Positions 19,921 through 37,652 of a stretch of 42,232 nucleotides of DNA are shown piece after piece (within the stretch, counting starts at the first letter, position 1; every line of letters begins with the position of its first letter). The notes beneath the pieces were generated by a model. The model ran no database searches. It was not told the origin of the DNA and was given only the letters and a program-made list of their open reading frames with translations. A program made the position numbers and the translations under genes. Origin of the DNA: a virus; the IMG/VR virus record IMGVR_UViG_3300030099_002696, positions 1 through 42,232 of that record; one strand, 5' to 3'.

Positions 19921-19951
19921 AAAAAACCCTGCCCACCGCTCACTGGGGCTA
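19921..19951 (-). terminator. Probable Rho-independent terminator after DNA polymerase
   Basis: On the minus strand, immediately at the polymerase stop, a GCCCcA...TGGGC hairpin is followed by AGGG and six T residues. The stem is short with one bulge, so strength is uncertain. Its location at the end of the polymerase gene and before the structured gap fits partial termination. Confidence 0.45.
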
Positions 19952-21793
19952 ACAGGCTCCGTAGGAATCGCCAAACCCTCCCTCACAGTCGAGGGGCAGG
20001 TCTTGCGCCCATCTGGGCCGTATTCTCATAATCTTCTCTACTACACGCATACCCTCTTCCACCTCTGCTTCTGGCACTATGCAGCCCACGGCATCATGCA
20101 CCGTCATCACTACCTTGTACTTTTGAGATATGCGTAACAACTGTTCACCGATAACGATCCGTGCCAGTGCCTGACACACGTTCTCGATTACTTTACCTCC
20201 ATATATTCTAGTATCTATAAGTGTCCTACCACGCCGGGACTTATATACAGTTTCAGTATTACCCTCTTCGTTAACTTCTTTTCTAAGCTCTGGGTATTTT
20301 ATATACAAACCATTGGGTAGCTTTATGCCTTTGCTACCCTCTACTTCTAGCATACTAGAGGGTCCGAAAGCACTCACACGGTCTTTTCTTATCACCTCTA
20401 GCATCTTGTTTGCCTTACTCCACAGCTTAGGTATCTTGGGATAAGACCTTCTGTATACCTTTATAATACGCTCACACTCGGACAAATCCAGATCTACCCC
20501 AAAGTTCTTTAGCTGCGCCTGAAACTTAGCGGCGCCCATGCCGTAGCCTGCTCCTAGTATAGTAGTCTTACCAACAAATCTTTCCTGTTTGGTTATTTCT
20601 TCTTCAGGTTTGGCGTATATAGCAGACGCCATTATGCTGTAGACATCATCACCTCTGGCAAAGGCATCGACTAGCTTACGCTCTTCAGCTAACCATGCCA
20701 GTGTCCGTGCCTCTATCTGAGACAGGTCACAGTCCACAAACTTGTACCCGTCTGGAGCGCACATGGCTTTCTTCAGTTGAGAGCCACGGGGCAGGTTCTG
20801 CATGTTTATTTTGTCATCACCACCCCACCGTCCGGTGTGTGCTGCGTAGTAACGCAGGGGTATGGGCAGAGTCCCTCTTTCGCTTATCGCAATAAATCGT
20901 TCGGTGCGCTTTTCTTCGATGGTAGACCTTACACCTAGCCTAGCAGATACAAGAGCCTGTACCGCTGGATTCTCATGTTCTTGCAAAACTTTAAAGTTTT
21001 CATCGCTTTTGGCAAAGGCAAAGGTCTCCTTGCCCGTGGTAGGGCTTATCTTAGTAGGGGGTTCAATACCATACTCACGTAATAGTTCTGCGAATTGTGG
21101 ATTAGATGTTAGCTGTGTTTTTTCATGTTTGACTTTAGCCATCAACGCTTCTTTTTTATCTACAACATCTTTTAAGTGTGCTTTCAATACATCAGCGTCT
21201 AGGCGTAACGTAGGCTCACTAAACATGCGAATAGTTAAATCTATTAACGCAAGTTCGAAAGGAGGAAAGTTTTCGTTAAGCACATTGAATAACTTGTGGG
21301 TAAGTTCTACATCCTGTATGCAGTACCCGCCATAGGCTTCTAACTCTGACTTCGTAAAGTCCAGACGCTTCTTACCTATGGCACTATGTACCTCCGTGCC
21401 TTTAGCACCTAAACCATAGTATTCGGACAGCGCCGCAAGGCTCCCTCCTACTTCTATAGAATGAATAGCACGGGACATTGCCAGCGTATCAATTATTTTT
21501 GCTGGCTTGATATTGAAATGCCAATTAAGGATTGCCATGTCGAACATGGCATTGTGTGCTACGACGGCAGAGTCAGCCCAATCGAACTGCTCTAGGAACT
21601 TTGTTATTTGTTTTTTTGAACCAGAAAACCACGTTGGCGCATTTGCTCTATGATAGTTGCCGCCCTCGCCCTGCTTGACAGCAACTCCGATAACCTCGAA
21701 ACGAGGATCTCGAATATACTCTTCAGTGGTTAGTTTGTTTAGGCCGTAATCTTTTGCGTAATATGTTTCAAAATCTAAAGTTAAGGTTTTCAT
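19949..21793 (-). CDS. Family A DNA polymerase with 3'-5' exonuclease, 614 aa
   Basis: The N-terminal proofreading exonuclease has LDFET (Asp7, Glu9), AHNAMFDMAIL (Exo II) and YCIQDVELT (Exo III). The polymerase domain has motif A DCDLSQIEARTLAW near residue 354, motif B with Lys and GAGYGMG near 406-418, and motif C MTVHDAVG near 565. It therefore looks fully active in synthesis and proofreading. At 614 residues it is a compact phage type without a 5'-3' exonuclease domain. It would copy the phage genome with the primase-helicase and SSB-like protein coded downstream. The start at 21793 lies inside the end of the VRR-NUC gene (26-base overlap), implying translational coupling. A probable terminator follows the stop. 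Confidence 0.95.
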   Translation of the reverse strand: MKTLTLDFETYYAKDYGLNKLTTEEYIRDPRFEVIGVAVKQGEGGNYHRANAPTWFSGSKKQITKFLEQFDWADSAVVAHNAMFDMAILNWHFNIKPAKIIDTLAMSRAIHSIEVGGSLAALSEYYGLGAKGTEVHSAIGKKRLDFTKSELEAYGGYCIQDVELTHKLFNVLNENFPPFELALIDLTIRMFSEPTLRLDADVLKAHLKDVVDKKEALMAKVKHEKTQLTSNPQFAELLREYGIEPPTKISPTTGKETFAFAKSDENFKVLQEHENPAVQALVSARLGVRSTIEEKRTERFIAISERGTLPIPLRYYAAHTGRWGGDDKINMQNLPRGSQLKKAMCAPDGYKFVDCDLSQIEARTLAWLAEERKLVDAFARGDDVYSIMASAIYAKPEEEITKQERFVGKTTILGAGYGMGAAKFQAQLKNFGVDLDLSECERIIKVYRRSYPKIPKLWSKANKMLEVIRKDRVSAFGPSSMLEVEGSKGIKLPNGLYIKYPELRKEVNEEGNTETVYKSRRGRTLIDTRIYGGKVIENVCQALARIVIGEQLLRISQKYKVVMTVHDAVGCIVPEAEVEEGMRVVEKIMRIRPRWAQDLPLDCEGGFGDSYGAC

Positions 21794-22079
21794 TTGGGTT
21801 TAGGTACTCGTCGAGTACGCCTAAGTTCTCTTCATTAATTATAAAAGTTGTGCCTCCTGCTTCTCGAATAGCAGAAAGCTCTCTAAGCTGTAGAGGTGTT
21901 GCCTTGTTCTTACCTGCCTTGCATTCTATGCCAATAAAATAACCACGATAACAACAAACAATATCAGGCACACCACTTCTTCCCATGCCATAACTGGACG
22001 GAAAAAAATAGTACGCCCCGTATTTTTTCAATACACGCACTACACTGTTTTTGACTTTCTTCTCAGGGGTGAGAGCCAT
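21768..22079 (-). CDS. VRR-NUC domain nuclease, 103 aa
   Basis: The small single-domain protein carries the VRR-NUC version of the PD-(D/E)XK fold: GVPDIV (Asp39), GIECKAG (Glu52, Lys54) and TPLQLRE (Gln64). Stand-alone phage and bacterial members act as structure-specific nucleases, for example on Holliday or flap junctions. Here it would resolve replication or recombination intermediates. It is the first gene after a strong hairpin terminator, with a promoter-like sequence ending six bases upstream of its ATG, and it overlaps the polymerase start by 26 bases. The first helix is basic (EKKVKNSVVRVLKKYG), as usual. Confidence 0.9.
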   Translation of the reverse strand: MALTPEKKVKNSVVRVLKKYGAYYFFPSSYGMGRSGVPDIVCCYRGYFIGIECKAGKNKATPLQLRELSAIREAGGTTFIINEENLGVLDEYLNPNENLNFRF

Positions 22080-22193: not shown

Positions 22194-23174
22194 CTAGGAG
22201 TCATACTCCATTTCTTCTGCGTCGATAAAAAAGCTATCGTCATCGAGCTTGTAGCCTGCACCTGTTATAAAAGTATTAGGTTCTGCAACTTTTAACAAGC
22301 CCAATGCTAGTCGCACCTTTTCAGACAGATGTTCTTTCGCGTAACCGGCTCTATGGTCGGTGCAATCGGGAGGGCGCGTTGCCCAATGATGCTCATTATA
22401 ACCTTCAAAGTAGTAACGCTCTTCTCCGTTAGGAAGTTTCTTCCTTAGCAAGAACGCGCCGTGATTGGTATCAACTTTCTTATATGCGGCTGTAACCAAC
22501 GAGTATTCCTCACGTTTATCAAGCCAAGCAGTAACCAGATCAATAGCACCTGCATTATTCATGTACTCTGCAAATAGCTTGTCATTATTGTTTAACTGAG
22601 TTTTGATATACTTAATAATCGCAGACTCAGCATTTCCTACTTCACTGTTTGAGGAATACCTAGTGTTATTTATCTTAGTAGATACATTGTTCCGTATCGC
22701 TTTTAATTGCTCTTTAAGAGTTATTGGTGTGAAGTATGTGCGAAATATACTCTTGGCCGTAGCAAGTTTAGAGGTCTTCTTTCCTCTTTCCCGATGTAGC
22801 CTTTGGTCAATACGGTTGTTATAGAATATATAAACTGTCTTTTGCCAGCTCGTATCAGCATGGTTTTGTATTCTACCCAAACATTCAGTGCCATTGAAAA
22901 CATACACGTTATGTACCCCTTCAAAACTGTGACGAGGCTCTACCCAAAACTCAAGATCAAAACGAGTTTGAGCAATGTCGGCTAGAAACTTGGCTATCCA
23001 ATCGTGATCTTCACAAGGCACAAGCCCATGCTCTTCAGCAAGACTATTATCCTGCTGAATACTAATCACATTTCGGGGCAAGTTCTTGAAGCGCGGATGC
23101 TTCGTTTTCTGAGGCATGTATTCATCAACAATGCGATCAGACATTCTGTTGCCATCATATACTTTAGAGATCAT
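22194..23174 (-). CDS. Hypothetical accessory-module protein, 326 aa
   Basis: I do not recognise a domain. The N-terminal 60 residues are polar (NRMSDRIVDEYMPQKTKHPR). Residues about 75-135 look beta-rich (RFDLEFWVEPRHSFEGVHNV, then TVYIFYNNR). The middle is basic and helical, and the C-terminus is acidic (DDDSFFIDAEEMEYDS). No membrane segment or known catalytic motif is seen. It is the last gene of the AAA+/VWA module and starts 10 bp after the 286-aa gene with the module's standard GGAGAAC ribosome site. Its stop is followed by a palindrome copy and a terminator. Position suggests that it serves the same pathway as the ATPase and VWA proteins. Confidence 0.8.
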   Translation of the reverse strand: MISKVYDGNRMSDRIVDEYMPQKTKHPRFKNLPRNVISIQQDNSLAEEHGLVPCEDHDWIAKFLADIAQTRFDLEFWVEPRHSFEGVHNVYVFNGTECLGRIQNHADTSWQKTVYIFYNNRIDQRLHRERGKKTSKLATAKSIFRTYFTPITLKEQLKAIRNNVSTKINNTRYSSNSEVGNAESAIIKYIKTQLNNNDKLFAEYMNNAGAIDLVTAWLDKREEYSLVTAAYKKVDTNHGAFLLRKKLPNGEERYYFEGYNEHHWATRPPDCTDHRAGYAKEHLSEKVRLALGLLKVAEPNTFITGAGYKLDDDSFFIDAEEMEYDS

Positions 23175-23184
23175 TAGGTTCTCC

Positions 23185-24045
23185 TTACCATTCGTACGAT
23201 TTAATGATTGAGTCCACTTCCTCCTTCACTTCCTTACGGACAGTTGGGGAGTCTTTGAACATGTCTTTTGTTTTACCTACCATAACATCCTCAAGACGTT
23301 GTACGGCTTCATCTATCTTGGGGTCATTAGTTAAGTTCATATGTTTGAGTATACGGCACAGATCCATAGGGTTACTGACAAAGGTGTCATGCCACCGCTT
23401 CTTGTCATCCTCCTCATCGTCACCAGTGTCCGTACACTTTTCACTTATTGACTGCAACTCTTTAAGTAGTCGCTTGTCATTCTCTTTCATGGCTTCTGCC
23501 ACTTTACGCTCTACCTCGGCATCGCATGACTGTTTGAGTTCTTGCATTTCCTGTGCGGGTAAGTCAATGCACAAGTGGCCTGACTCCGGCACAGGAGACA
23601 CAACAAAGTTCCAAGCAAACTTACCCATCACCTCTTCTACAGGCGGGTAGTCCTCTTCTCGAAACAAATCACCACGATGGTCCTTGGCTGTTTCGCGGTA
23701 GCTCCAATACTTCACTCGGAATGTATCTAGCATACTCTCGAACTCAGTCCGTTTTAGATTGTGTTGAGACTTGTAGTCTAAGAATAGGCTGGTAGGACAA
23801 AGCCTGTACCCACGCTCGTCCCACGGGCGTGTCATGTAGTTGTGCCACAGTCGTGACTTAGCTGCATGTTTCTGAATATCCTTGTGGCCGGTTGAACCGA
23901 CCATCAAGTTATCATAAGTGCGTATGGCTTTTGGGTCTGCGTTTTTATTCCTAGCCAACTCATTCTCGATGTGTTGATTGCGCTTGCTTGCACCCCACAC
24001 ACTAATGTTGAGGCGTACTAATACTGCGCTGTTTGCTATACTCAT
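23185..24045 (-). CDS. Putative DUF3150-like partner of the AAA+/VWA pair, 286 aa
   Basis: The N-terminus reads VLVRLNISVWGASKRNQHI, which resembles from memory the opening of DUF3150-type phage proteins found beside CobS-like AAA+ and CobT-like VWA genes. The assignment is tentative. Residues 60-110 carry a conserved-looking helical block with many aromatics (LWHNYMTRPWDERGYRLCP). Residues 170-220 are a charged coiled coil with an acidic patch (TGDDEEDDKKRWHD), and the C-terminus is helical. It sits directly downstream of the VWA gene. The palindrome and then AGGAGAACC stand immediately before its ATG. It may be a substrate adaptor or a third subunit of the ATPase complex, which is inference. 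Confidence 0.72.
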   Translation of the reverse strand: MSIANSAVLVRLNISVWGASKRNQHIENELARNKNADPKAIRTYDNLMVGSTGHKDIQKHAAKSRLWHNYMTRPWDERGYRLCPTSLFLDYKSQHNLKRTEFESMLDTFRVKYWSYRETAKDHRGDLFREEDYPPVEEVMGKFAWNFVVSPVPESGHLCIDLPAQEMQELKQSCDAEVERKVAEAMKENDKRLLKELQSISEKCTDTGDDEEDDKKRWHDTFVSNPMDLCRILKHMNLTNDPKIDEAVQRLEDVMVGKTKDMFKDSPTVRKEVKEEVDSIIKSYEW

Positions 24046-24056
24046 TTGGTTCTCCT

Positions 24057-24076
24057 ATGTAGTGAAAACTACATGC
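24057..24076. repeat. Dispersed palindrome, copy 2 (loop inverted)
   Basis: ATGTAGT (24057-24063) and ACTACAT (24068-24074) flank GAAA on the plus strand, followed by GC. The loop is inverted relative to the other copies, so minus-strand RNA would show a TTTC loop. It overlaps the last base of the VWA stop codon region and ends directly at the AGGAGAACC ribosome site of the 286-aa gene. Confidence 0.88.
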
Positions 24077-25311
24077 TAATCAATGTTAATGGTTTTACCC
24101 ATAGGGGCAGTTATTTTTGAGGTATTGCATATCACCCAAAGAAGAGGGACAGTCCAATTACCCCAGTCATTTATCTCGCCGTCAGTCAACATCACTACTG
24201 CGTCTGGCTTGATGTTGTTATCTTTGAGATAGTCAGACACGCATCTAGGATTCGTGCCTCCTCCGCCTATCACTTCTTTAATAGGTGGAGCGTTCTGTAG
24301 TTCATCGCTAGTAAACACACCCCGATGTTCGGCAGTGCCATCCCAGTCAATGACATGTATCTCATCAATGTTAAGCATCTTGGAAATGCCTACCATTTCG
24401 CTTGTTACCTTCTTGAGACGATCTTGATAAAACATAGAACCCGATGCATCTCTGCACTCAACCAGACATTTGATGCTATGTCCTTCTAGCGTAGGCATTA
24501 TGATGTCTTGATATAAGTATCTACGATTGGGTCTGCGCCAAGATGAATGTTCTTTCTTGCGACAAGTAGAGTTGAGAAACTGTCGTAGCTGCATGGGCCA
24601 ATTCACTTGCGGGGCCACTAGCTCCTCCAAACCCAACGCATCTCGTAGCCCTCCTTGACCGGGCCGCGAGTTAGCGTGCAGGTTACTGCGTATGGCTTCA
24701 ACAATATCCCGCTTGAGTTCTTGCTTCTCCTCCTTGGTCAGTTCATCAGCACCGTCCCAGTCATGCTCGTCAAAGCTAGGGCTGTCACCGTCACCAGTGC
24801 CTTCACCTTCGCCTTTACCTTCGCCTTCAGTTTCTTCGCCGGATTCTTCATCCTCTTTCTGCTGCTCAAGTATGTCGTAGAAGATTCGCTTGATCGTCCA
24901 GTCTGCATACTTGGGATCAAGCAAGCCACAGATGTTTCCATCTGCATCCTTCGGCATTTGTACATATTCGCCTTTGGGGTCAGCTAGTATGATGCGGTTG
25001 TTATTCCACTGGTCAGCAGCCATGTTTGCAACAATAGCATTCATCAATCTCAGCGTTTGGTAAGTGGTAAAGTGCATACCCGCTTTGTGCATCCACTCAT
25101 GCACGATCACAAAAGCCGCTGCCTTGTCACCGTTAGCAAAACCAAAGATGAAGTCAGGGTTGTACCAACAGTCCCGTCCATCAGTCATGGCTGTGGGTAT
25201 GTCAGTAGTCAGATAAGACTTGCCATGCATGGCAACACCACGCAACAAGCCAAACGGTTTAGATCGCATAAGCCCGATCTTGATAGCTTTAAACTTACGC
25301 TCGATTTTCAT
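24076..25311 (-). CDS. Metallopeptidase-like plus VWA domain protein, 411 aa
   Basis: The N-terminal domain contains HEWMH (His71-Glu72-x-x-His75) and a further His80, a zincin signature as in VWA-like predicted metallopeptidases (DUF2201 type). Residues 150-190 are a highly acidic, Gly/Glu-rich linker. The C-terminal domain is von Willebrand factor A-like with a complete metal-ion site: DASGS (Asp288, Ser290, Ser292), GGGGTN (Thr353) and LTDGE (Asp377). VWA proteins of this kind pair with MoxR or CobS-type AAA+ ATPases, here coded about 1.6 kb upstream in the same transcript. They are thought to remodel protein complexes or insert metals. N4-like phages also carry an AAA+/VWA pair (gp24/gp25). 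Substrate and peptidase activity are unknown. The start lies within the end of the 145-aa gene. Confidence 0.87.
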   Translation of the reverse strand: MKIERKFKAIKIGLMRSKPFGLLRGVAMHGKSYLTTDIPTAMTDGRDCWYNPDFIFGFANGDKAAAFVIVHEWMHKAGMHFTTYQTLRLMNAIVANMAADQWNNNRIILADPKGEYVQMPKDADGNICGLLDPKYADWTIKRIFYDILEQQKEDEESGEETEGEGKGEGEGTGDGDSPSFDEHDWDGADELTKEEKQELKRDIVEAIRSNLHANSRPGQGGLRDALGLEELVAPQVNWPMQLRQFLNSTCRKKEHSSWRRPNRRYLYQDIIMPTLEGHSIKCLVECRDASGSMFYQDRLKKVTSEMVGISKMLNIDEIHVIDWDGTAEHRGVFTSDELQNAPPIKEVIGGGGTNPRCVSDYLKDNNIKPDAVVMLTDGEINDWGNWTVPLLWVICNTSKITAPMGKTINID

Positions 25312-25732
25312 TGGTATCTTTCTCCCAATTTTTCTTACAGTATATTTTGCCGCCGTAGTACAAATACCCCCTTGCTCCTTTCAAACTTCTCTCTTTGAGA
25401 TTTTTGGGGACAAGTATTCGTTTAGCTCCGTCAGCTAGAGAACAGTAAACTTCGTGGTCACAGGTTCTGTCCACGCCCAACTCGTTTACTATGTGGTTGA
25501 TTAACAGGTTGTATCTATCTAAGTAGGGGTAGATAGAGTTACCTTTAGCGTTGACCGCAAAGAAGTTACTTATCCGATGCCAACCATTTCTCTTGGCACG
25601 TTGCATTAGCTTCCACGGGTCTAACCTTTTGCCATACACATCAATAGGACGCATGTTGTGCATGTCAAAACCGTCAAAACCAACAGCCAAACCCTGACCA
25701 TTGGTTCGAGCTTTTACTCGCGTATCACTCAT
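25295..25732 (-). CDS. Hypothetical accessory-module protein, 145 aa
   Basis: The preferred start is ATG 25732, six bases after AGGAGG. Longer in-frame starts up to 25771 run into the preceding gene. The protein is basic, with many Tyr and Arg residues (AVGFDGFDMHNMRPIDVYGK, then KLMQRAKRNGWHRISNFF) and a C-terminal GYLYYGGKIYCKKNWEK. No domain is recognised and no membrane segment is seen. It ends 17 bases inside the VWA gene, so the two are probably co-translated, which suggests a partner role. Confidence 0.75.
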   Translation of the reverse strand: MSDTRVKARTNGQGLAVGFDGFDMHNMRPIDVYGKRLDPWKLMQRAKRNGWHRISNFFAVNAKGNSIYPYLDRYNLLINHIVNELGVDRTCDHEVYCSLADGAKRILVPKNLKERSLKGARGYLYYGGKIYCKKNWEKDTNENRA

Positions 25733-25745
25733 CTGCATCCTCCTG

Positions 25746-26003
25746 TTAATGTATAGAGTCTCGATCGCCAATAGTCCCTTTACTTTCAGCGCAACAAATA
25801 CTCACTAGTTTCATAAAGGTCTCTTCTTCCCATTCTCCCTCCTCAAAGGCTATGTCCGCCGCTTTAGATATGAGCATGGCAATCAAAGCTAAGGTTGGAG
25901 TTCCGTCTAATGTGGATATGAATTCAGCCATCTTCACATCAAACTTTTTCCACTCTTCAGCCATTCTTTCACTTATGTGATCTATTATTTCCTCTTCAGT
26001 CAT
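25746..26003 (-). CDS. Hypothetical small acidic protein, 85 aa
   Basis: It is largely helical and acidic (MTEEEIIDHISERMAEEW, later EEGEWEEETFMKLVSICC), with one hydrophobic helix (TPTLALIAMLISKAADIAF) that is too polar around it to be a sure membrane span. It starts inside the end of the preceding 48-aa gene. A GGAGGAAAAC ribosome site there also codes the tail of that gene. The function is unknown. It resembles no family I can name. Confidence 0.7.
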   Translation of the reverse strand: MTEEEIIDHISERMAEEWKKFDVKMAEFISTLDGTPTLALIAMLISKAADIAFEEGEWEEETFMKLVSICCAESKGTIGDRDSIH

Positions 26004-26142
26004 TCTCGTTTTCCTCCGGTCTGGTTAAGTTAACTAACTGCCAAGCAAGTTCATGCAAAGCCGCTTTATCATCTCTCGAAAATTCAAGTTCAATTAGATT
26101 AATCACTTCTAGTATTTTCTGGTGGTTCGTCATCATAGTCAT
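25996..26142 (-). CDS. Hypothetical small protein, 48 aa
   Basis: The preferred start is ATG 26142, seven bases after GAGGAG. An upstream extension of this frame overlaps another gene and looks non-coding. The peptide is helical (HQKILEVINLIELEFSRDD) and ends in an acidic EENEND tail encoded by the ribosome site of the next gene. It overlaps the 56-aa gene by 44 bases and the 85-aa gene by 8. The function is unknown. Confidence 0.6.
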   Translation of the reverse strand: MTMMTNHQKILEVINLIELEFSRDDKAALHELAWQLVNLTRPEENEND

Positions 26143-26269
26143 TTTCATTCTCCTCACGCAAAATATTAGCTTCCTTTTCGTACCTTTCTTTAAGAATAGG
26201 TGCAATTTCGTCGAACAAACTTTGCAAGTCTTCCGTTGTCCACTCGTTGTAGTCGAAATCACTCATCAT
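26099..26269 (-). CDS. Hypothetical small acidic protein, 56 aa
   Basis: The frame follows one of three identical 19-bp initiation cassettes (GGAGAACG then ATGATGAGTGA on the minus strand). It is strongly acidic, with Trp and Leu near the N-terminus (DYNEWTTEDLQSLFDEIAPI) and an Asp/Glu/Asn-rich tail. Either of two adjacent ATGs (26269 or 26266) could start it, and the second is better spaced. An acidic DNA-mimic role is conceivable but unsupported. Confidence 0.62.
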   Translation of the reverse strand: MMSDFDYNEWTTEDLQSLFDEIAPILKERYEKEANILREENENDYDDEPPENTRSD

Positions 26270-26277
26270 CGTTCTCC
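26259..26277 (-). repeat. 19-bp initiation cassette, copy 3
   Basis: Identical to the copies at 26739 and 26929. On the minus strand it holds GGAGAACG, two ATG codons and AGTGA. Here it both ends the 69-aa gene (tail QENDDE) and starts the 56-aa gene. Confidence 0.9.
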
Positions 26278-26468
26278 TGTATATCTTTTAGAATTTCTCG
26301 CCGTAGTCTCTTGCGATCTTCGGGCGAACACTTTGTAGCTATGCGAATATCACTTAGCTTTAGTTTGTAACTGGAGGGTTGCCAGTACAGTGCGGCGGGA
26401 GGATCAGTGACAAGCATGTACTGCCACTGCTCCCCGTCGATGTCTACGTAGAAAGATTCACCTGTCAT
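26259..26468 (-). CDS. Hypothetical small protein, 69 aa
   Basis: The N-terminal half looks like a small beta sheet (SFYVDIDGEQWQYMLVTD, then ALYWQPSSYKLKL). The C-terminal half is a charged helix with SPEDRKRLRREILKD and an acidic QENDDE tail. The start overlaps the stop of the AT-hook gene (ATGA). The function is unknown. Overlaps at both ends and a normal amino-acid mix support coding. Confidence 0.7.
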   Translation of the reverse strand: MTGESFYVDIDGEQWQYMLVTDPPAALYWQPSSYKLKLSDIRIATKCSPEDRKRLRREILKDIQENDDE

Positions 26469-26749
26469 CTGCCTTTCCCCTTAAACGTAGATGCTTTCAG
26501 TATTGAACCGTCAGGATCATGCTCCGCTATCCAGTCTTTGATTATCATTTGGACTACTTGAGTAGTTGTTAGTTGTATCCCTACTTCCTGAGATTTAATA
26601 GCAACGCAATCCCATATAAGTTCTGCTACAGATCGGGGTAGGGTTATAGCTTTGTATGCTACCCTCCTGTCTTTCACTGCCGCTTTTCGTTCTTCGTTAG
26701 TTTCGTACTTTCTAGGTCTGCCTCTTCCTCTTTTTACTTCACTCATCAT
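26465..26749 (-). CDS. Small AT-hook/ribbon-helix-helix-like DNA-binding protein, about 94 aa
   Basis: The preferred start is the double ATG at 26749/26746 inside the 19-bp cassette, because the longer frame back to 26776 lies within the upstream gene. The N-terminus contains KRGRGRPRKYE, a classic AT-hook that binds the minor groove of A/T-rich DNA. Residues 30-75 (YKAITLPRSVAELIWDCVAI, then TTTQVVQMIIKDW) resemble a ribbon-helix-helix dimer. It may regulate this module or bind the A/T-rich repeat region at 29.8-30.1 kb, which is inference. The C-terminus is basic (KASTFKGKGR). It is coupled to the 69-aa gene by an ATGA overlap. Confidence 0.7.
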   Translation of the reverse strand: MMSEVKRGRGRPRKYETNEERKAAVKDRRVAYKAITLPRSVAELIWDCVAIKSQEVGIQLTTTQVVQMIIKDWIAEHDPDGSILKASTFKGKGR

Positions 26750-26757
26750 CGTTCTCC
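26739..26757 (-). repeat. 19-bp initiation cassette, copy 2
   Basis: Same 19 bases as at 26259 and 26929. It encodes the EENDDE tail of the 66-aa gene while giving the ribosome site and start codons of the AT-hook gene. Confidence 0.9.
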
Positions 26758-26939
26758 TCGATTTTGGTAAAAACAATAAACAAATCCACCCCTCGCTCTT
26801 CTGCTATTTCATCATCCTGTTCGCAGTCTATCCCCATCTCACGTAACACTTCCGCCATCGTCGAAAACATCTCGTCATGGCTTGCGTCACTTTCAACCAC
26901 ACTGCACCAATACTTCGGTAATTCTTGTTCACTCATCAT
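26739..26939 (-). CDS. Hypothetical small acidic protein, 66 aa
   Basis: It starts at ATG 26939 or 26936 within the first 19-bp cassette, 10 bp past the AAA+ gene. The sequence is acidic and helical (ASHDEMFSTMAEVLREMG, then GVDLFIVFTK), with two Cys residues that do not form a clear metal motif. The tail is EENDDE. The function is unknown. It is the first of a run of small overlapping genes between the AAA+ and VWA genes. Confidence 0.7.
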   Translation of the reverse strand: MMSEQELPKYWCSVVESDASHDEMFSTMAEVLREMGIDCEQDDEIAEERGVDLFIVFTKIEENDDE

Positions 26940-26947
26940 CGTTCTCC
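26929..26947 (-). repeat. 19-bp initiation cassette, copy 1
   Basis: Same 19 bases as at 26739 and 26259. Here it lies after the AAA+ stop codon and is used only as ribosome site and start of the 66-aa gene. Confidence 0.9.
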
Positions 26948-26948
26948 T

Positions 26949-28013
26949 TTACAGTAAGTCTTCGTTGTCAGCGGCCCACAGTGCGAACGCGCGGTTATGG
27001 TGAGCAATCTCTTTCTTGGTGTTGTGTCGAGCCAACGTCACGTTAAACACCACCTGCCACTCTTCTTCCATCCTAACCAGATACTTCAGGATATTAGTAA
27101 GAGTGTCTGTCTCCACATGCTCTAGCAGTCCGAACGTAAGAACTGCCCGCGCGCCCGGCTGTTCAGGAATGTCAGCACTCATAGGAGATTCTAGGATGGA
27201 CTTAACAGACGGCAATGACTCTTGGTACCGGATGAAAGACACAATGCTATTGCCGAACGCGCTACCCGCTGTACCTACCAACGCAGCGAGAAGAGCACCT
27301 TCGTCATACTTATCACGGTTCTTGATAATCCTACTGGCGATCTCCAGTGTGCGAGGAGACACCACGTTATCGTCTGGATTGGAGGGATGGAATATGTATT
27401 CGTTCTTTACTCCATCCAAGTAGGAGGCCATGCACTGTCTGTATCTGTCCACCCACGCCATGACAATCGGGTCAATGTCATTGTTGAAAGCCCATGCAAG
27501 CCAATCGTCTGCGGTAGGCTTCATAACAATCAACTCAACGACACGTTGTCTGGTATGTTGGGCCAGACCATCACCCACGCCATCAGTATCCAGATTGCCA
27601 GTCAGATAAATAATGGTGCCATCAGGTGTCGGTATATCACCGAGTCTAGGGTTAAATACTTCTAACGCAGGGTGAAGCATATTCTTCACTGCGTCTGCGC
27701 CTTTAGTAAACTCGTCAAAGCACATAACCACAGGCTGTCCGGTGTGGATACCGAACCTAGCATTGGGGTAGTAGCGAGTTACCTTAGTCTCATGGTCAAT
27801 GACGGGCATACACACATCGCCCAGATCCATGTTAGGAATATCTAGCATGGATAGCGGATAGCCCACCACCCTTGCTATTTCCATTGCAATGCTAGACTTA
27901 CCAACGCCCGGCTCACCACGTAGCATGAAGCGCACGTTGGGGTTGTTGACGATAAGCTGTACAGCTTGCTTGAGTGTTACGGTTAAGATTTCATTTATTT
28001 CAGTTGCATTCAT
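26949..28013 (-). CDS. MoxR/CobS-like AAA+ ATPase, 354 aa
   Basis: The Walker A motif is GEPGVGKS (residues 33-40), Walker B is VVMCFDEFTKG (Asp100-Glu101) and the sensor-1 Asn140 is in YLTGN. Arg155/Arg157 in HTRQR are likely arginine fingers. The order and the GDVCMPVID and NPRLGDIPTPDG segments fit the MoxR/CobS branch, which works as a hexameric ring that remodels or loads partner proteins, usually with a VWA protein. The VWA-metallopeptidase gene lies downstream in the same transcript. In other phages such pairs are often labelled CobS/CobT-like although no cobalamin step is implied. It starts with GGAGAACC six bases before ATG. Its substrate is unknown. Confidence 0.92.
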   Translation of the reverse strand: MNATEINEILTVTLKQAVQLIVNNPNVRFMLRGEPGVGKSSIAMEIARVVGYPLSMLDIPNMDLGDVCMPVIDHETKVTRYYPNARFGIHTGQPVVMCFDEFTKGADAVKNMLHPALEVFNPRLGDIPTPDGTIIYLTGNLDTDGVGDGLAQHTRQRVVELIVMKPTADDWLAWAFNNDIDPIVMAWVDRYRQCMASYLDGVKNEYIFHPSNPDDNVVSPRTLEIASRIIKNRDKYDEGALLAALVGTAGSAFGNSIVSFIRYQESLPSVKSILESPMSADIPEQPGARAVLTFGLLEHVETDTLTNILKYLVRMEEEWQVVFNVTLARHNTKKEIAHHNRAFALWAADNEDLL

Positions 28014-28040
28014 TGTATAGGTTCTCCGAATAAAAATTAA

Positions 28041-28232
28041 TTAAAGGGTTGATAGAAAACAATCAAAGACCTCCGGCTTTGCAGTTACGTGTAGCTTTTG
28101 TTCATCCATAGTCACAACCGCTACTTTGTTATTGTGAACGTGGGACACATAATATCGTCGCCCACCCCTATCTCTTACTACTTCGCCAGTAAGCACTGGC
28201 TGTTGTGTTTTTGCTCGAACTAATTTTTTCAT
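28041..28232 (-). CDS. Hypothetical small basic protein, 63 aa
   Basis: The preferred start is ATG 28232, which overlaps the stop of the 305-aa gene in an ATGA junction. The frame could extend 7 codons further. The sequence is basic and beta-like (TGEVVRDRGGRRYYVSHV, then NKVAVVTMDEQKLHV), perhaps a small SH3-like barrel. No known motif is present. It precedes the AAA+ gene by 27 bp. Confidence 0.68.
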   Translation of the reverse strand: MKKLVRAKTQQPVLTGEVVRDRGGRRYYVSHVHNNKVAVVTMDEQKLHVTAKPEVFDCFLSTL

Positions 28233-29146
28233 AACCTCATGCCCCCTTCGCATTTCACAAACATGTCGTTGTTGTTATAGCAAAGTGTCCTTACTTCCCG
28301 CAGTTCAAAAATCTCCTTTGCATGGACTGCTTTAACTACATCAGTTATGTAAGCCGACACATCTTTAGGGCGAATCTGATAAGAACCCCATCCACTCAAA
28401 CGCCCATGTTCATCGCGCTGTTCCACGCACTTCCTTAGTATGTATGCACTGGCTTTGGGCCATAACTCTTCGTCTAACATGCACTTCCACAAATCTCTTG
28501 CTCTAACATTATTCAGTGCAGCTATTCCTTCTAGTTCATTTCCCGCTGTTGAAGACCCTATGTAGTCTTCTGCATTCGCCATCTTTGCCATTGCCCTAGT
28601 ATATTTAGTGAACGTAGCTACCAGCTCTTTCTTCTCGTTCAGCACTTTGCGCTTGGCATAGTAGCCGTACATCTTGGGACGCTCGATAAGATGCCACTCA
28701 GCACCGCCTTTCCATTTGCGTAGTCTGAGTTGTATGCCATCCGTTATAGTGATCCAGTCTTTAGTGGCTCTATCGAATATAAGCGCATCACAGTAGCCAT
28801 GTGCTCTAAACACCAAGTTATCGGGTGGCATATAGCGACCAGTTCCACGCCTGAGTATGAGATCAACAACGGTCATAGCCAACTTCATCCAGCCACCACG
28901 CTCCGGTGTCACGGAGACATATTCATCTGAGCCTTGCTTTATAAACTCAAGCACAGTATCACCGTAGACTTTTATGCTTACCGTGTCCTTGCCGTTGTAA
29001 CATATGGATATTTCTTTGTGCTTCCTACCTGTACCCCCTGTTATGAAAGGGCGTATGCTTTTGCCCCTCAGGGGTTTGATAGATTCATAGTGTTTTAGTG
29101 CTTCTTTGAACGTGGTTAGTTTTGGTACATAGTCTAAATATGACAT
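28229..29146 (-). CDS. Hypothetical accessory-module protein, 305 aa
   Basis: No domain is recognised. It is basic with many Tyr and Trp residues. The N-terminal part looks beta-rich (KEISICYNGKDTVSIKVYG), the middle has KWKGGAEWHLIERPKMYGYY, and the C-terminal half is helical, including LWKCMLDEELWPKASAYILR. It follows a palindrome copy and AGGAGAACC directly, the same arrangement as the 286-aa gene. It lies upstream of the AAA+ gene in the same direction. It may be a module-specific factor or nucleic-acid-binding protein, but this is not supported by any motif. Confidence 0.8.
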   Translation of the reverse strand: MSYLDYVPKLTTFKEALKHYESIKPLRGKSIRPFITGGTGRKHKEISICYNGKDTVSIKVYGDTVLEFIKQGSDEYVSVTPERGGWMKLAMTVVDLILRRGTGRYMPPDNLVFRAHGYCDALIFDRATKDWITITDGIQLRLRKWKGGAEWHLIERPKMYGYYAKRKVLNEKKELVATFTKYTRAMAKMANAEDYIGSSTAGNELEGIAALNNVRARDLWKCMLDEELWPKASAYILRKCVEQRDEHGRLSGWGSYQIRPKDVSAYITDVVKAVHAKEIFELREVRTLCYNNNDMFVKCEGGMRL

Positions 29147-29157
29147 TTGGTTCTCCT

Positions 29158-29177
29158 ATGTAGTTTTCACTACATGC
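29158..29177. repeat. Dispersed palindrome, copy 3
   Basis: ATGTAGT and ACTACAT around TTTC (plus strand), with a trailing GC. It contains the stop codon of the upstream 45-aa gene and ends at the AGGAGAACC ribosome site of the 305-aa gene. Confidence 0.88.
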
Positions 29178-29307
29178 TAGTTGATGGTTTGTCAGAAGTA
29201 TCTGACTCTTGATCCTGCTCTTGCTCCTGCTCTCGCAGCCACTTGCGTAGCACTTCGATGTCGTACTCCGCTAACAGGTCTGCGAGTGTTACTTCTTCGT
29301 CTGACAT
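29170..29307 (-). CDS. Hypothetical small acidic protein, 45 aa
   Basis: The preferred start is ATG 29307, six bases after GGAGGG and directly after the stop of the membrane protein gene. A longer frame to 29439 only shadows that gene. The peptide is acidic and helical (ADLLAEYDIEVLRKWLREQ), followed by a Gln/Glu repeat (EQEQEQDQE) and a Ser/Thr tail. Its stop lies inside a palindrome copy. The function is unknown. Confidence 0.62.
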   Translation of the reverse strand: MSDEEVTLADLLAEYDIEVLRKWLREQEQEQDQESDTSDKPSTSM

Positions 29308-29309
29308 AG

Positions 29310-29549
29310 CTATCCCTCCAGTATCAGCATCAGGCTTGCCAGTGCCCATACAAAGAGCACTGAGGCTACTACCGTAGTGGTAAGACCAAAGATCTGCAAC
29401 GGGCGAACCCATACAGGCAGCTTGGGTTCTTCTGCCCACTTGAGTTTGTTGTTGGGATCATGGATATTCAGATTGCTGAAGTCATCATAGTGTGGCTTTT
29501 TGTATACTTCGCCTACTGTCCAGTTGTTCTTTTTCATTGTCGTTCTCAT
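29310..29549 (-). CDS. Small single-span membrane protein, 79 aa
   Basis: Residues 1-48 are polar and charged, and residues about 51-77 form one long hydrophobic segment (IFGLTTTVVASVLFVWAL and onward), a C-terminal membrane anchor. It has no signal-peptide cleavage site and no lysis signature. With its charged N-terminus it could anchor a module partner at the inner membrane or be a holin-like protein, but neither is shown. Two in-frame starts, each preceded by the same GAGAACGACAAT, arise from a 12-bp tandem duplication. It follows the zinc-ribbon gene closely. Confidence 0.72.
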   Translation of the reverse strand: MRTTMKKNNWTVGEVYKKPHYDDFSNLNIHDPNNKLKWAEEPKLPVWVRPLQIFGLTTTVVASVLFVWALASLMLILEG

Positions 29550-29559
29550 TGTCGTTCTC
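29536..29559 (-). repeat. 12-bp tandem duplication of initiation site
   Basis: GAGAACGACAAT occurs twice in a row on the minus strand, giving two ribosome site/ATG pairs in the same frame four codons apart at the start of the membrane protein gene. Confidence 0.9.
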
Positions 29560-29560
29560 C

Positions 29561-29752
29561 TTATGTGGTTCGCTTTGGGTTTAGTTGCTTTAGCTCTTCG
29601 GTTGAAAGAACCATGTAGTTGCTCTTGTTTAGTGGTGCTATAGTATGTCGTACTTTTCCTGCCTCTTGTTCACCACACAACATACAAGTTGTCTTACCTA
29701 GCTTTGCCCTTGCGGGTGAGAATGGTTTGTTACATTTACTGCATACAGCCAT
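29561..29752 (-). CDS. Small zinc-ribbon protein, 63 aa
   Basis: CSKC at residues 4-7 and CMLC at 23-26 form a treble-clef or zinc-ribbon finger with basic residues between (PARAKLGK). The C-terminal half is polar and ends NPKRTT. Similar short zinc proteins in phages may bind nucleic acid or RNA polymerase. It starts with AGGAGAAC seven bases before ATG. It is the first gene after the repeat-rich region at 29.76-30.12 kb and its stop overlaps the ribosome site of the membrane protein gene. Confidence 0.75.
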   Translation of the reverse strand: MAVCSKCNKPFSPARAKLGKTTCMLCGEQEAGKVRHTIAPLNKSNYMVLSTEELKQLNPKRTT

Positions 29753-29759
29753 GATGTTC

Positions 29760-30115
29760 TCCTTTGTTACATTGGTTGATGGTTAGGGTGTTACATTGTT
29801 ATGGAAATGCGGTGCGATGTTACGCAGTGTATAACAATACAAGCCGCTTGAAAGTATTGATGAACACTGGTCTGTAGTAATGTTATATTTGTATTGTTAT
29901 ATTGTTATGGAAAAAACAGAAAAACAGACACACACTTCATTTGCTTTTTTCACTTGCCGAGAGGGGTAAGAGAGGGGTAAGAAAATATTGTGTGTTCTTT
30001 TTTTGCATAACATTACACAAAAGCCTTTCTTTGCTATATACAACAAGACTTTAGGGCGTAACATTAAACATAACATTAAGAGTTTTGCATAACATTGCAT
30101 GGCGCATTACCTCCA
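29760..30115. repeat. A/T-rich region with oppositely oriented TAACATT/AATGTTA repeats
   Basis: This gene-free stretch is packed with a short motif. On the plus strand TGTTAC, TTGTTAT and AATGTTAT forms cluster at about 29765-29910, and TAACATT forms cluster at about 30005-30095, including TTGCATAACATT twice. The two halves are roughly mirror images around 29,950. Such an array suggests a replication origin with iteron-like sites or a multi-site operator. Nothing else that is coding is convincing here. Confidence 0.6.
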
Positions 30116-30120
30116 TAACT

Positions 30121-30141
30121 ATCATCAGCCTTGCTGATGAT
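30121..30141. repeat. Perfect 9-bp inverted repeat
   Basis: ATCATCAGC and GCTGATGAT are separated by 3 bases and lie 7 bp from palindrome copy 4. There is no T-run on either side, so it is not a typical terminator. An operator or a tight hairpin is possible. Confidence 0.75.
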
Positions 30142-30148
30142 CTAGGTA

Positions 30149-30170
30149 GCATGTAGTTTTCACTACATGC
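30149..30170. repeat. Dispersed 22-bp palindrome, copy 4
   Basis: A full-length copy with arms GCATGTAGT/ACTACATGC around TTTC on the plus strand. It lies between the terminator of the 45-aa basic gene and the A/T-rich repeat region, not next to a start codon. Confidence 0.9.
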
Positions 30171-30221
30171 GCTCTACCTTGGGTCAAAATAGGCGAAAAT
30201 CGGCCATTTTTTTCAGGCCCA

Positions 30222-30252
30222 AAAAAATCGCCCCGCCAAAAATGACGGGGCA
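30222..30252 (-). terminator. Rho-independent terminator
   Basis: On the minus strand an 8-bp stem (CCCCGTCA/TGGCGGGG with one G-T pair) and a 4-T loop are followed by CGATTTTTTT. It lies about 20 bp past the stop of the 45-aa basic gene and closes the first leftward transcription unit. Confidence 0.85.
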
Positions 30253-30272
30253 ATCTGTGACATACGGCGCGC

Positions 30273-30410
30273 TTATGGATTGTTTAGTAGGTATAACGCT
30301 TCTCGCTTTGCGCGACGCGCTTGTTTGCGCGCTTTGCGTTTGGCGATGTCTTCTTTTAAGCGACTACGTTCCAAGCATACCGGAGGCTTGATCTTAGTAT
30401 ATCCATTCAT
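30273..30410 (-). CDS. Small very basic protein, 45 aa
   Basis: The frame starts at ATG 30410, overlapping the stop of the 254-aa gene in a TAATG junction, with GGGAG upstream. The peptide is dominated by Arg, Lys and Ala (AKRKARKQARRAKRE), so it probably binds nucleic acid. A strong terminator follows its stop. Its shortness limits certainty, but coupling, ribosome site and terminator agree. Confidence 0.65.
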   Translation of the reverse strand: MNGYTKIKPPVCLERSRLKEDIAKRKARKQARRAKREALYLLNNP

Positions 30411-31174
30411 TATAGCTTCTCCCTTATCACTTCTAGTTTAGCTATAACATTAGTGATAGCGTCAGTGACATCTTGACGCTGCTTTTTGGTGCCGCATGAC
30501 TCTTTTTCTACATACTTCTCTAACAACGTATTATAGTTAGTCTGCGTATTGTTAAGAGCACGCACAAGAGTATCGATACTCTGATTTGCTCCGGCTGCTG
30601 ACATGTTCGATGAGCCTTTCTTTTTCTCATTATTATTCCGCCATACTTTCGAAAGTGTGACACTCGATACGTTGCCGGTCTTATTTCTGGCGCGTGTTTT
30701 GGCTTCTTTGCCTTTATTGCCATCGTCTGGATCACCCCATGCCATTTGTCGCGCAATACCTTGCTTACGCGTATTCCATTGCATGCTGACAGACTTGGCG
30801 TCTAGCAATTTCTTATGATGGTCACCCAGCTCAATCGCAGCGGCTTTGTTTCTATTCCAATCTTCCTCTACAGTGCCGCGTGCCTTTTCTTTTGTGGCAT
30901 TGCTAGCGTTAGCAGCGACAAATAATGAAGACCATTTATCCCAGAAAGTATCAAACTTAGACGTAGCAGCAGCGTCTACAATAGGAAACATGTACAGACC
31001 GTTAGCGTCTAATACTCTCCCTATTTCCTTTTGTGCTTTTGCTGCGTCTGCCTTGTTTGATACTTCTTTCTTTAATACTTCATCCTGTACACCTAACGCA
31101 GCGCGAACCGCTTTAGGTAATTTATCTTCTTGCATGGTTACTGATTTTTTCTTAGTCATAATATTTGTACTCAT
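30410..31174 (-). CDS. Hypothetical early protein, 254 aa
   Basis: This is the first sizeable gene of the leftward strand. It is basic, rich in Lys, Ala, Asn and Gln, with little predicted hydrophobic core. A helical central part (KFDTFWDKWSSLFVAANAS) is followed by a basic linker (KTRARNKTGNVSSVTLSKVW) and a C-terminal coiled coil (VTDAITNVIAKLEVIREKL). I recognise no domain. It may bind DNA or RNA. No Shine-Dalgarno sequence precedes either ATG (31174 or 31159), and the start overlaps the end of a 17-codon frame that crosses palindrome copy 5. It is the natural candidate for an immediate-early host-takeover protein, judged by position only. Confidence 0.75.
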   Translation of the reverse strand: MSTNIMTKKKSVTMQEDKLPKAVRAALGVQDEVLKKEVSNKADAAKAQKEIGRVLDANGLYMFPIVDAAATSKFDTFWDKWSSLFVAANASNATKEKARGTVEEDWNRNKAAAIELGDHHKKLLDAKSVSMQWNTRKQGIARQMAWGDPDDGNKGKEAKTRARNKTGNVSSVTLSKVWRNNNEKKKGSSNMSAAGANQSIDTLVRALNNTQTNYNTLLEKYVEKESCGTKKQRQDVTDAITNVIAKLEVIREKL

Positions 31175-37045: not shown

Positions 37046-37243
37046 ATGGCTCAAACTGTATTTGATGTGTTGGACAATAAACTTGTAGAAATACAGAAAC
37101 AGCAAGAAGCATTCCTTTCTGGTGGGGGAGCTAAGGACTACCCCGACTATATGGAATCGTGTGGGGTGATCCGAGGTCTAGCCGCTGCACGCCGTGAAAT
37201 TCAAGACCTTGCGCGTAACTATATGGATGATGTAGATGACTGA
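37046..37243 (+). CDS. Hypothetical small head-cluster protein, 65 aa
   Basis: Starting 2 bp after the portal stop and overlapping the co-chaperonin gene by 8 bases, this is a helical protein (VFDVLDNKLVEIQKQQEA, then GVIRGLAAARREIQDLARN) with an acidic end. The Asp-Tyr-Pro-Asp-Tyr turn in the middle suggests a helical hairpin. I associate such proteins with portal-adjacent genes in marine phages, but the function is unknown. Confidence 0.78.
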   Translation: MAQTVFDVLDNKLVEIQKQQEAFLSGGGAKDYPDYMESCGVIRGLAAARREIQDLARNYMDDVDD

Positions 37244-37652
37244 ACAAGCCCAACTAACCCCGCTTGAAACAAAGCGGCGCAAACAGATAGAGGCAAAGAA
37301 GGTCGCAGAAGTAATACTAGATAAGCATATTCCCATTCCTGTGGGCTACAGAGTGCTTGTACGTTTACCTTCTGTAGAGGATAAGTTTGAAGGAGGAATA
37401 GCTAAAGCAGCTTCCACAATCAGAGAAGAGTACATTTTGTCTATGGTGGGAGTTGTAACTGACATGGGTGAACAAGCCTATAAAGACGCAGAGCGATTTC
37501 CTGACGGCCCTTGGTGTAAAGAGGGTGATTACGTCATGTTTCGTGCAAATACAGGCACGAGATTTAAGGTTGGCAAAGAAGAGTACCGTCTGATGAATGA
37601 TGACTCTATTGAAGCCGTAATCAAAGACGTAAGCAGATTAACTCGCGCATGA
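37236..37652 (+). CDS. GroES-like co-chaperonin, 138 aa
   Basis: From residue 33 the sequence follows the Cpn10 plan. GYRVLVRLP...EGGI matches the first barrel strands of GroES, the next segment (KAASTIREEYILS) takes the place of the mobile loop, VGVVTDMG matches the following strand, and KEGDYVMFRANTGTRFKV with EYRLMNDDSIEAVIKD matches the C-terminal strands and the residues that bind the neighbour subunit. It is longer than bacterial GroES (about 97 residues) by an N-terminal helical arm. Phage co-chaperonins such as T4 gp31 replace GroES on host GroEL so that the capsid protein can fold in an adapted chamber. Its place between portal and scaffold/capsid genes fits that job. Confidence 0.85.
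   Translation: MTEQAQLTPLETKRRKQIEAKKVAEVILDKHIPIPVGYRVLVRLPSVEDKFEGGIAKAASTIREEYILSMVGVVTDMGEQAYKDAERFPDGPWCKEGDYVMFRANTGTRFKVGKEEYRLMNDDSIEAVIKDVSRLTRA

Follow-up and report, generated by a model that had tools for sequence, protein, structure and literature searches.

The DNA analysed here, called the window throughout, is the whole of IMG/VR virus record IMGVR_UViG_3300030099_002696, which is linear, probably incomplete, 42,232 bases long and derived from a marine tailed phage. Its plus strand carries a terminase, a protein in the portal position, GroES and a Mu-gpT-like capsid protein; DNA polymerase A, a SNF2 helicase, a PD-(D/E)XK nuclease, an SNase and a DUF927 primase-like protein are encoded on the minus strand. 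The subject of this report is a cassette centered on a MoxR-type AAA+ ATPase and a protein that joins a metallopeptidase-like domain to a VWA domain. The cassette lies within a leftward gene run together with replication genes, and the terminase, portal and capsid genes are on the other strand. The pair has already been published and belongs to known phage pair families. What is new is a fixed cassette in which the pair is accompanied by a DUF3150-like protein and two fast-evolving partners, of 305 and 326 amino acids (aa), not previously connected with it.

The ATPase and the metallopeptidase-VWA protein

The ATPase (26949..28013, minus strand; 354 aa) is a homologue of phage N4 gp24. It matches the phrog_1297 ATPase family with an E-value of 1.3e-41 and Pfam AAA_5 over the cut-off. 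In an alignment of 16 clade members, the Walker A motif (GEPGVGKS), the Walker B motif (CFDEF), the sensor-1 N and the arginine of HTRQR (the arginine finger) are kept, and all four are intact in the window protein. The family profile picks up N4 gp24 at 4e-48, and the AAA domains of midasin are its nearest solved structures (E 3e-9).

The second protein (24076..25311, minus strand; 411 aa) is homologous to N4 gp25 and consists of an N-terminal HExxH metallopeptidase-like domain and a C-terminal VWA domain with a MIDAS metal site. Pfam DUF2201_N (metallopeptidase, 7e-24) and DUF2201 (VWA-like, 7e-11) are both matched over their cut-offs, and phrog_1314 is matched at 2.4e-71. Across 19 aligned VWA proteins, including that of cyanophage MinM2, the HExxH residues H71, E72 and H75 are invariant together with D100, and so are the MIDAS residues D288, S290, S292, T353 and D377. 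HExxH and DxSxS are likewise present in the homologues of N4, PA5oct and phage G. By sequence, no relative of solved structure was found with the VWA profile or with that of the DUF3150-like family. An initial annotation of the window, made from the sequence alone, had described a MoxR/CobS-like ATPase and a HExxH motif joined to a VWA domain with a complete metal site; both descriptions are confirmed, and all the open reading frames (ORFs) that it named are present where it placed them.

In PHROGs (phrog_1314) and in RefSeq (NC_008720.1 gp25; L152:3165-4307), the DUF2201 metallopeptidase-VWA family is named 'HNH endonuclease', and this label has spread to many phage records. The Pfam scan gave no support for an HNH endonuclease identity of the VWA protein. 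Judged from its domains, the name is a misnomer for N4 gp25 and many relatives, and the present analysis corrects it as misleading.

Gene order and fixed partners in related phages

The neighborhood was compared in 37 IMG/VR loci of one marine phage clade, several of which are near-identical to one another. Wherever the contig is long enough, the order is 305, (63), AAA, VWA, DUF3150, 326, VRR nuclease and DNA polymerase, where numbers denote protein lengths. The gene for the fast-evolving 305-aa protein (28229..29146, minus strand) was recognized by its neighborhood as a fixed upstream partner, being upstream of the ATPase gene in each of the 24 phage loci whose sequence extends far enough. 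The DUF3150-like gene (23185..24045, minus strand; 286 aa) adjoins the VWA gene in every relative covering the spot, except that a few relatives have a single small ORF separating the two. The fixed downstream partner, the fast-evolving 326-aa protein (22194..23174, minus strand), was characterized from its neighborhood and a structure model; its gene follows that of the DUF3150-like protein in 37 of 37 relatives. Between the 305-aa and ATPase genes, a 63-aa protein (28041..28232, minus strand; start set at the ATG matching relatives) is encoded at the same place in most relatives, with 59-80% identity, and is absent in L001, L016, L017, L019 and L028.

Downstream of the cassette, a VRR-NUC/Hjc-like nuclease of the replication genes (21768..22079, minus strand; phrog_93, 6.5e-19) follows in 35 of the 37 relatives, the remaining two contigs being cut off. 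The family A DNA polymerase with 3'-5' exonuclease comes after it (19949..21793, minus strand; DNA_pol_A 8e-36, exo1 3.9e-9). Upstream, the usual neighbors are a 79-aa protein with one membrane-span-like hydrophobic C-terminal stretch (29310..29549, minus strand) and a 63-aa zinc-ribbon-like protein with two CxxC pairs (29561..29752, minus strand). Both features had been named before and were seen again by direct reading; the two genes are in place at 18 and 17 of 31 tested loci, respectively, and some of the rest are cut off.

The complete-MIDAS VWA gene adjoins the ATPase gene in the relatives, and this adjacency is interrupted in the window alone, by 1637 bp. Gap comparison delimited the block (25312..26948, minus strand), which holds small ORFs of 66, 103 (AT-hook), 69, 56, 85 and 158 aa; in 21 relatives, no more than 187 bp separate the two genes. 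Homologues of the 69-aa and 103-aa insert proteins are placed elsewhere in relatives, and the 158-aa protein gave no match. Since the insert is unique to the window and its 69-aa and 103-aa members are located elsewhere in relatives, the conserved system comprises some six genes instead of twelve or more, and the notion of all the roughly 12 neighbors as one system was dropped; the insert ORFs are probably not part of the machine. The initial annotation had proposed a dedicated multi-gene unit with about 12 co-ordered companions, to be checked against random neighbors. The dedicated unit stands as a core of AAA+, metallopeptidase-VWA and DUF3150-like proteins with 305 and 326 fixed in the clade, but the companions shrink to 305, 63 and 326, usually with the zinc-ribbon and membrane genes, and the AT-hook, small acidic and 158-aa ORFs belong mostly to the window-only insert. 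In one relative, a run of short repeats of the RQP...NES type, open on both strands, lies between the module and the replication genes (L004:10697-11659).

Neither the 305-aa nor the 326-aa protein is matched in Pfam or PADLOC, or clearly in PHROGs: the best PHROG for the 305 family is phrog_19389 at 2e-5 (9 of 17 members), and the matches of 326 are scattered and chance-like. Searched alone in IMG/VR, the 305-aa protein retrieved nothing, and its family was reached via the neighborhood; its structure model (pLDDT 70) is too uncertain to read. The model of the 326-aa protein (pLDDT 82) shows a long helix at 153-195 between two small alpha/beta parts. A fold search with it returned no PDB match better than E 0.38, a second look with VIA gave a best Z of 5.7, to a lone helix, and a fold search of BFVD with both proteins found unnamed phage proteins alone.

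Divergence was compared over 18 loci. Relative to DNA polymerase, 305 diverges 2.8 times and 326 diverges 3.25 times as fast, compared with 1.3 for the ATPase and 1.2 for the DUF3150-like protein. Distances of 326 track those of the ATPase with r 0.93, and with a partial r of 0.77 given DNA polymerase; because the loci are related, this correlation is indicative only. In addition, locus L028 contains a second, diverged 305-AAA-VWA unit (L028:3587-9965). It is located upstream of the standard AAA-VWA-DUF3150-326 set and has retained HExxH and MIDAS, and its presence links 305 to the AAA/VWA pair. On the VWA tree, the extra copy forms a long branch inside or beside the clade.

The triad outside the clade and known systems

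The 286-aa protein, earlier noted as possibly DUF3150-like, matches the annotated 'DUF3150' protein of MinM2 (tblastn, 1e-14), and the profile of its family, A6, finds plasmid triad members at 6e-27 to 1.5e-34. No A6 member matches Pfam DUF3150 (PF11348) at the curated cut-off, and the Cupriavidus relative scores 22.1 of the 24.9 bits needed. It is called DUF3150-like because it is related to annotated DUF3150 proteins but falls outside the Pfam model. The suggestion of the initial annotation was thus upheld in this sense. With incomplete coverage of the literature, we found no publication mentioning DUF3150 and no earlier statement of it as the third member of a phage machine.

Profiles of the phage clade revealed an AAA+-DUF3150-VWA unit on three proteobacterial plasmids, from Cupriavidus (pRK1-1), Rhodovastum and Simplicispira. 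These triads adjoin PRTRC, toprim or ParB genes, and no virion genes occur in the stretches shown; on pRK1-1 (L039:1-11080), the triad is several genes downstream of the PRTRC system. Of 80 bacterial loci that the DUF3150 profile brought up, searched with profiles that included plasmid members, 54 carry the triad, mainly in Burkholderiales and always in the order AAA-DUF3150-VWA, and two further loci have DUF3150-VWA with the AAA gene cut off or unseen. A phage-specific nature of the pair is not supported, as plasmids and bacterial genomes carry the triad. All three components are homologous by profile between these triads and the phage cassette, whereas the phage clade has the order AAA-VWA-DUF3150, and 305, 63-aa and 326 genes were not found by profile on the plasmid and bacterial side. 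L129-L151, mostly planctomycete genomes, have DUF3150-like genes without a recognizable AAA+/VWA pair nearby.

Among phages, the window terminase is 50-58% identical to the terminases of pelagiphages HTVC027P and HTVC023P, of DSL-LC04 and of cyanophage MinM2. Despite the shared terminase, the pair was not found in the 50 kb read of each of HTVC027P and DSL-LC04. The Synechococcus/Planktothrix phage MinM2 carries AAA+, DUF3150 and VWA genes, but they are interspersed with small ORFs in the order AAA-DUF3150-VWA, and 305 and 326 are not detectable there.

As early as 2007, the two-subunit MoxR chaperone was pointed out in phage 0305phi8-36 (PMC2147016). Later, a MoxR/metallopeptidase-vWA pair was described in jumbo phages and proposed to act in virion assembly (Iyer et al., 2021; PMC7824862). 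Together with N4 gp24/gp25, this work overturns the earlier suggestion that the pair might be an undescribed system. The domain fusion and the partner ATPase of the jumbo-phage pair are the same, and PA5oct and phage G have homologues; it was described as a pair only, whereas the window cassette adds a DUF3150-like gene and clade partners and lies among replication genes. N4 gp24/gp25 (Schitoviridae; phrog_1297/phrog_1314), cited in the initial annotation as such a pair, are indeed homologous, at 23-27% identity to the window proteins. They are adjacent or near to each other in the middle/replication region, and DUF3150, 305-aa and 326-aa genes were not found by profile in the stretches read.

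The MoxR-vWA ternary conflict systems (Kaur et al., 2020; PMC7159879) likewise combine MoxR, vWA and a third conserved protein. Their third protein is of the VMAP, iSTAND or FtsH type, and effectors are fused C-terminally to vWA; in the window, the third protein is DUF3150-like, the peptidase domain is N-terminal and the VWA domain ends the protein, with no C-terminal effector. PADLOC with its full model set gave weak AAA-core matches to IetA alone (E 9e-4 or worse). Assignment to a known defence system was considered and dropped, and so was membership of the B12/CobST systems, of which no cobaltochelatase subunit was seen.

Possible role of the cassette

With moderate confidence, we regard the cassette as encoding an ATP-driven machine that remodels proteins early or in the middle of infection, with the DUF3150-like protein as third subunit and 305 and 326 as clade-specific partners. 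The most likely mechanism is modelled on NorQ/NorD, in which a finger of the VWA protein reaches into the AAA pore and the partner is remodelled by the ATPase (PMC13036017), and on midasin. By this analogy, a ring of the AAA+ protein would pull on a substrate that the VWA domain, as co-chaperone, would hold via its MIDAS metal site; the fused HExxH domain might cut, or only bind, what is delivered. The DUF3150-like protein may be the constant third subunit, and 305 and 326 may be clade-specific adaptors, regulators or substrates; the cassette would probably be expressed alongside the replication genes, early or midway through infection. Complex formation, peptidase activity, early timing and the roles of DUF3150, 305 and 326 are what we infer. 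This reading is favoured by the intact ATPase, MIDAS and HExxH residues across the clade, the closeness of the AAA+ profile to midasin, the recurring triad, the constant cassette order, the shared gene run with replication genes, the middle transcription of N4 gp24/gp25 (PMC4193335), the excess correlation of 326 with the ATPase and the extra unit in L028.

Nevertheless, some observations weigh against parts of this proposal. Several bacterial VWA members are without HExxH, so that peptidase activity may be dispensable, and N4-like phages manage with the pair alone, so that DUF3150 is not obligatory. No recognizable AAA or VWA was seen at 24 of the 80 bacterial DUF3150-like loci, mostly of planctomycetes, in a motif scan that had no positive control. 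Over the 18 loci, 305 distances show no excess correlation with those of the ATPase, and the tree-distance correlation of 326 itself is drawn from these related, non-independent loci. A bolder version, in which the pair constantly needs DUF3150, 305 and 326 are exchangeable substrate receptors aimed early at a host complex, and the core is combined with different receptors on plasmids, is offered as an unlikely one.

A rather unlikely alternative is that the pair is a chaperone of virion assembly or maturation, remodelling and trimming structural proteins late in infection. It follows the proposal of Iyer et al. for jumbo phages, which drew an analogy with the two-tailed archaeal virus ATV (PMC7824862); virion proteins of roseophage RPP1 are encoded near its gp24/gp25 homologues (PMC4193335), and the record of the PA5oct AAA+ homologue bears an ESI-MS/MS flag. 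However, the cassette is grouped with replication genes while the structural genes occupy the other strand, N4 gp24/gp25 belong to the middle genes, and the triad occurs in many bacterial genomes and on plasmids that have no virion genes in the stretches shown. This layout and the plasmid occurrence suggest a role before or outside virion assembly, and the sharing of a third component by phage, plasmid and chromosomal triads argues for a core role that is not limited to it.

Whether the complex instead serves host takeover or counter-defence, by unfolding or cleaving a host protein to which 305 and 326 match it as targets change, seems quite unlikely. The two partners diverge about three times faster than DNA polymerase while the core does not, and the leftward run that includes the replication genes has the cassette close to its beginning; yet rapid divergence equally fits relaxed constraint, and PADLOC found no host-target or defence family save the weak AAA similarity to IetA. 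Insertion of a metal or cofactor into a metalloenzyme, in the style of CobS/CobT or NorQ/NorD, is the business of the best-studied MoxR/VWA pairs (PMC13036017), but neither the phages nor the three annotated plasmids show a gene for a metalloenzyme substrate next to the triad, which makes such a function very improbable here. MoxR/VWA machines are widespread and understood in few cases, and the remodelling machine proposed above offers, in its cassette, a small, testable set of partner genes.

A promoter scan gave no excess above shuffled sequence. In the structural cluster of the window, a phage-encoded GroES (Cpn10) lies at 37236-37652, and it is likewise annotated in HTVC027P and DSL-LC04. 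The DNA polymerase ORF of L028 (L028:12367-15048; 893 aa) is interrupted in frame by some 280 residues that resemble an intein; this insert begins CIGAGTRVLCETGW and ends VIAHN before C.

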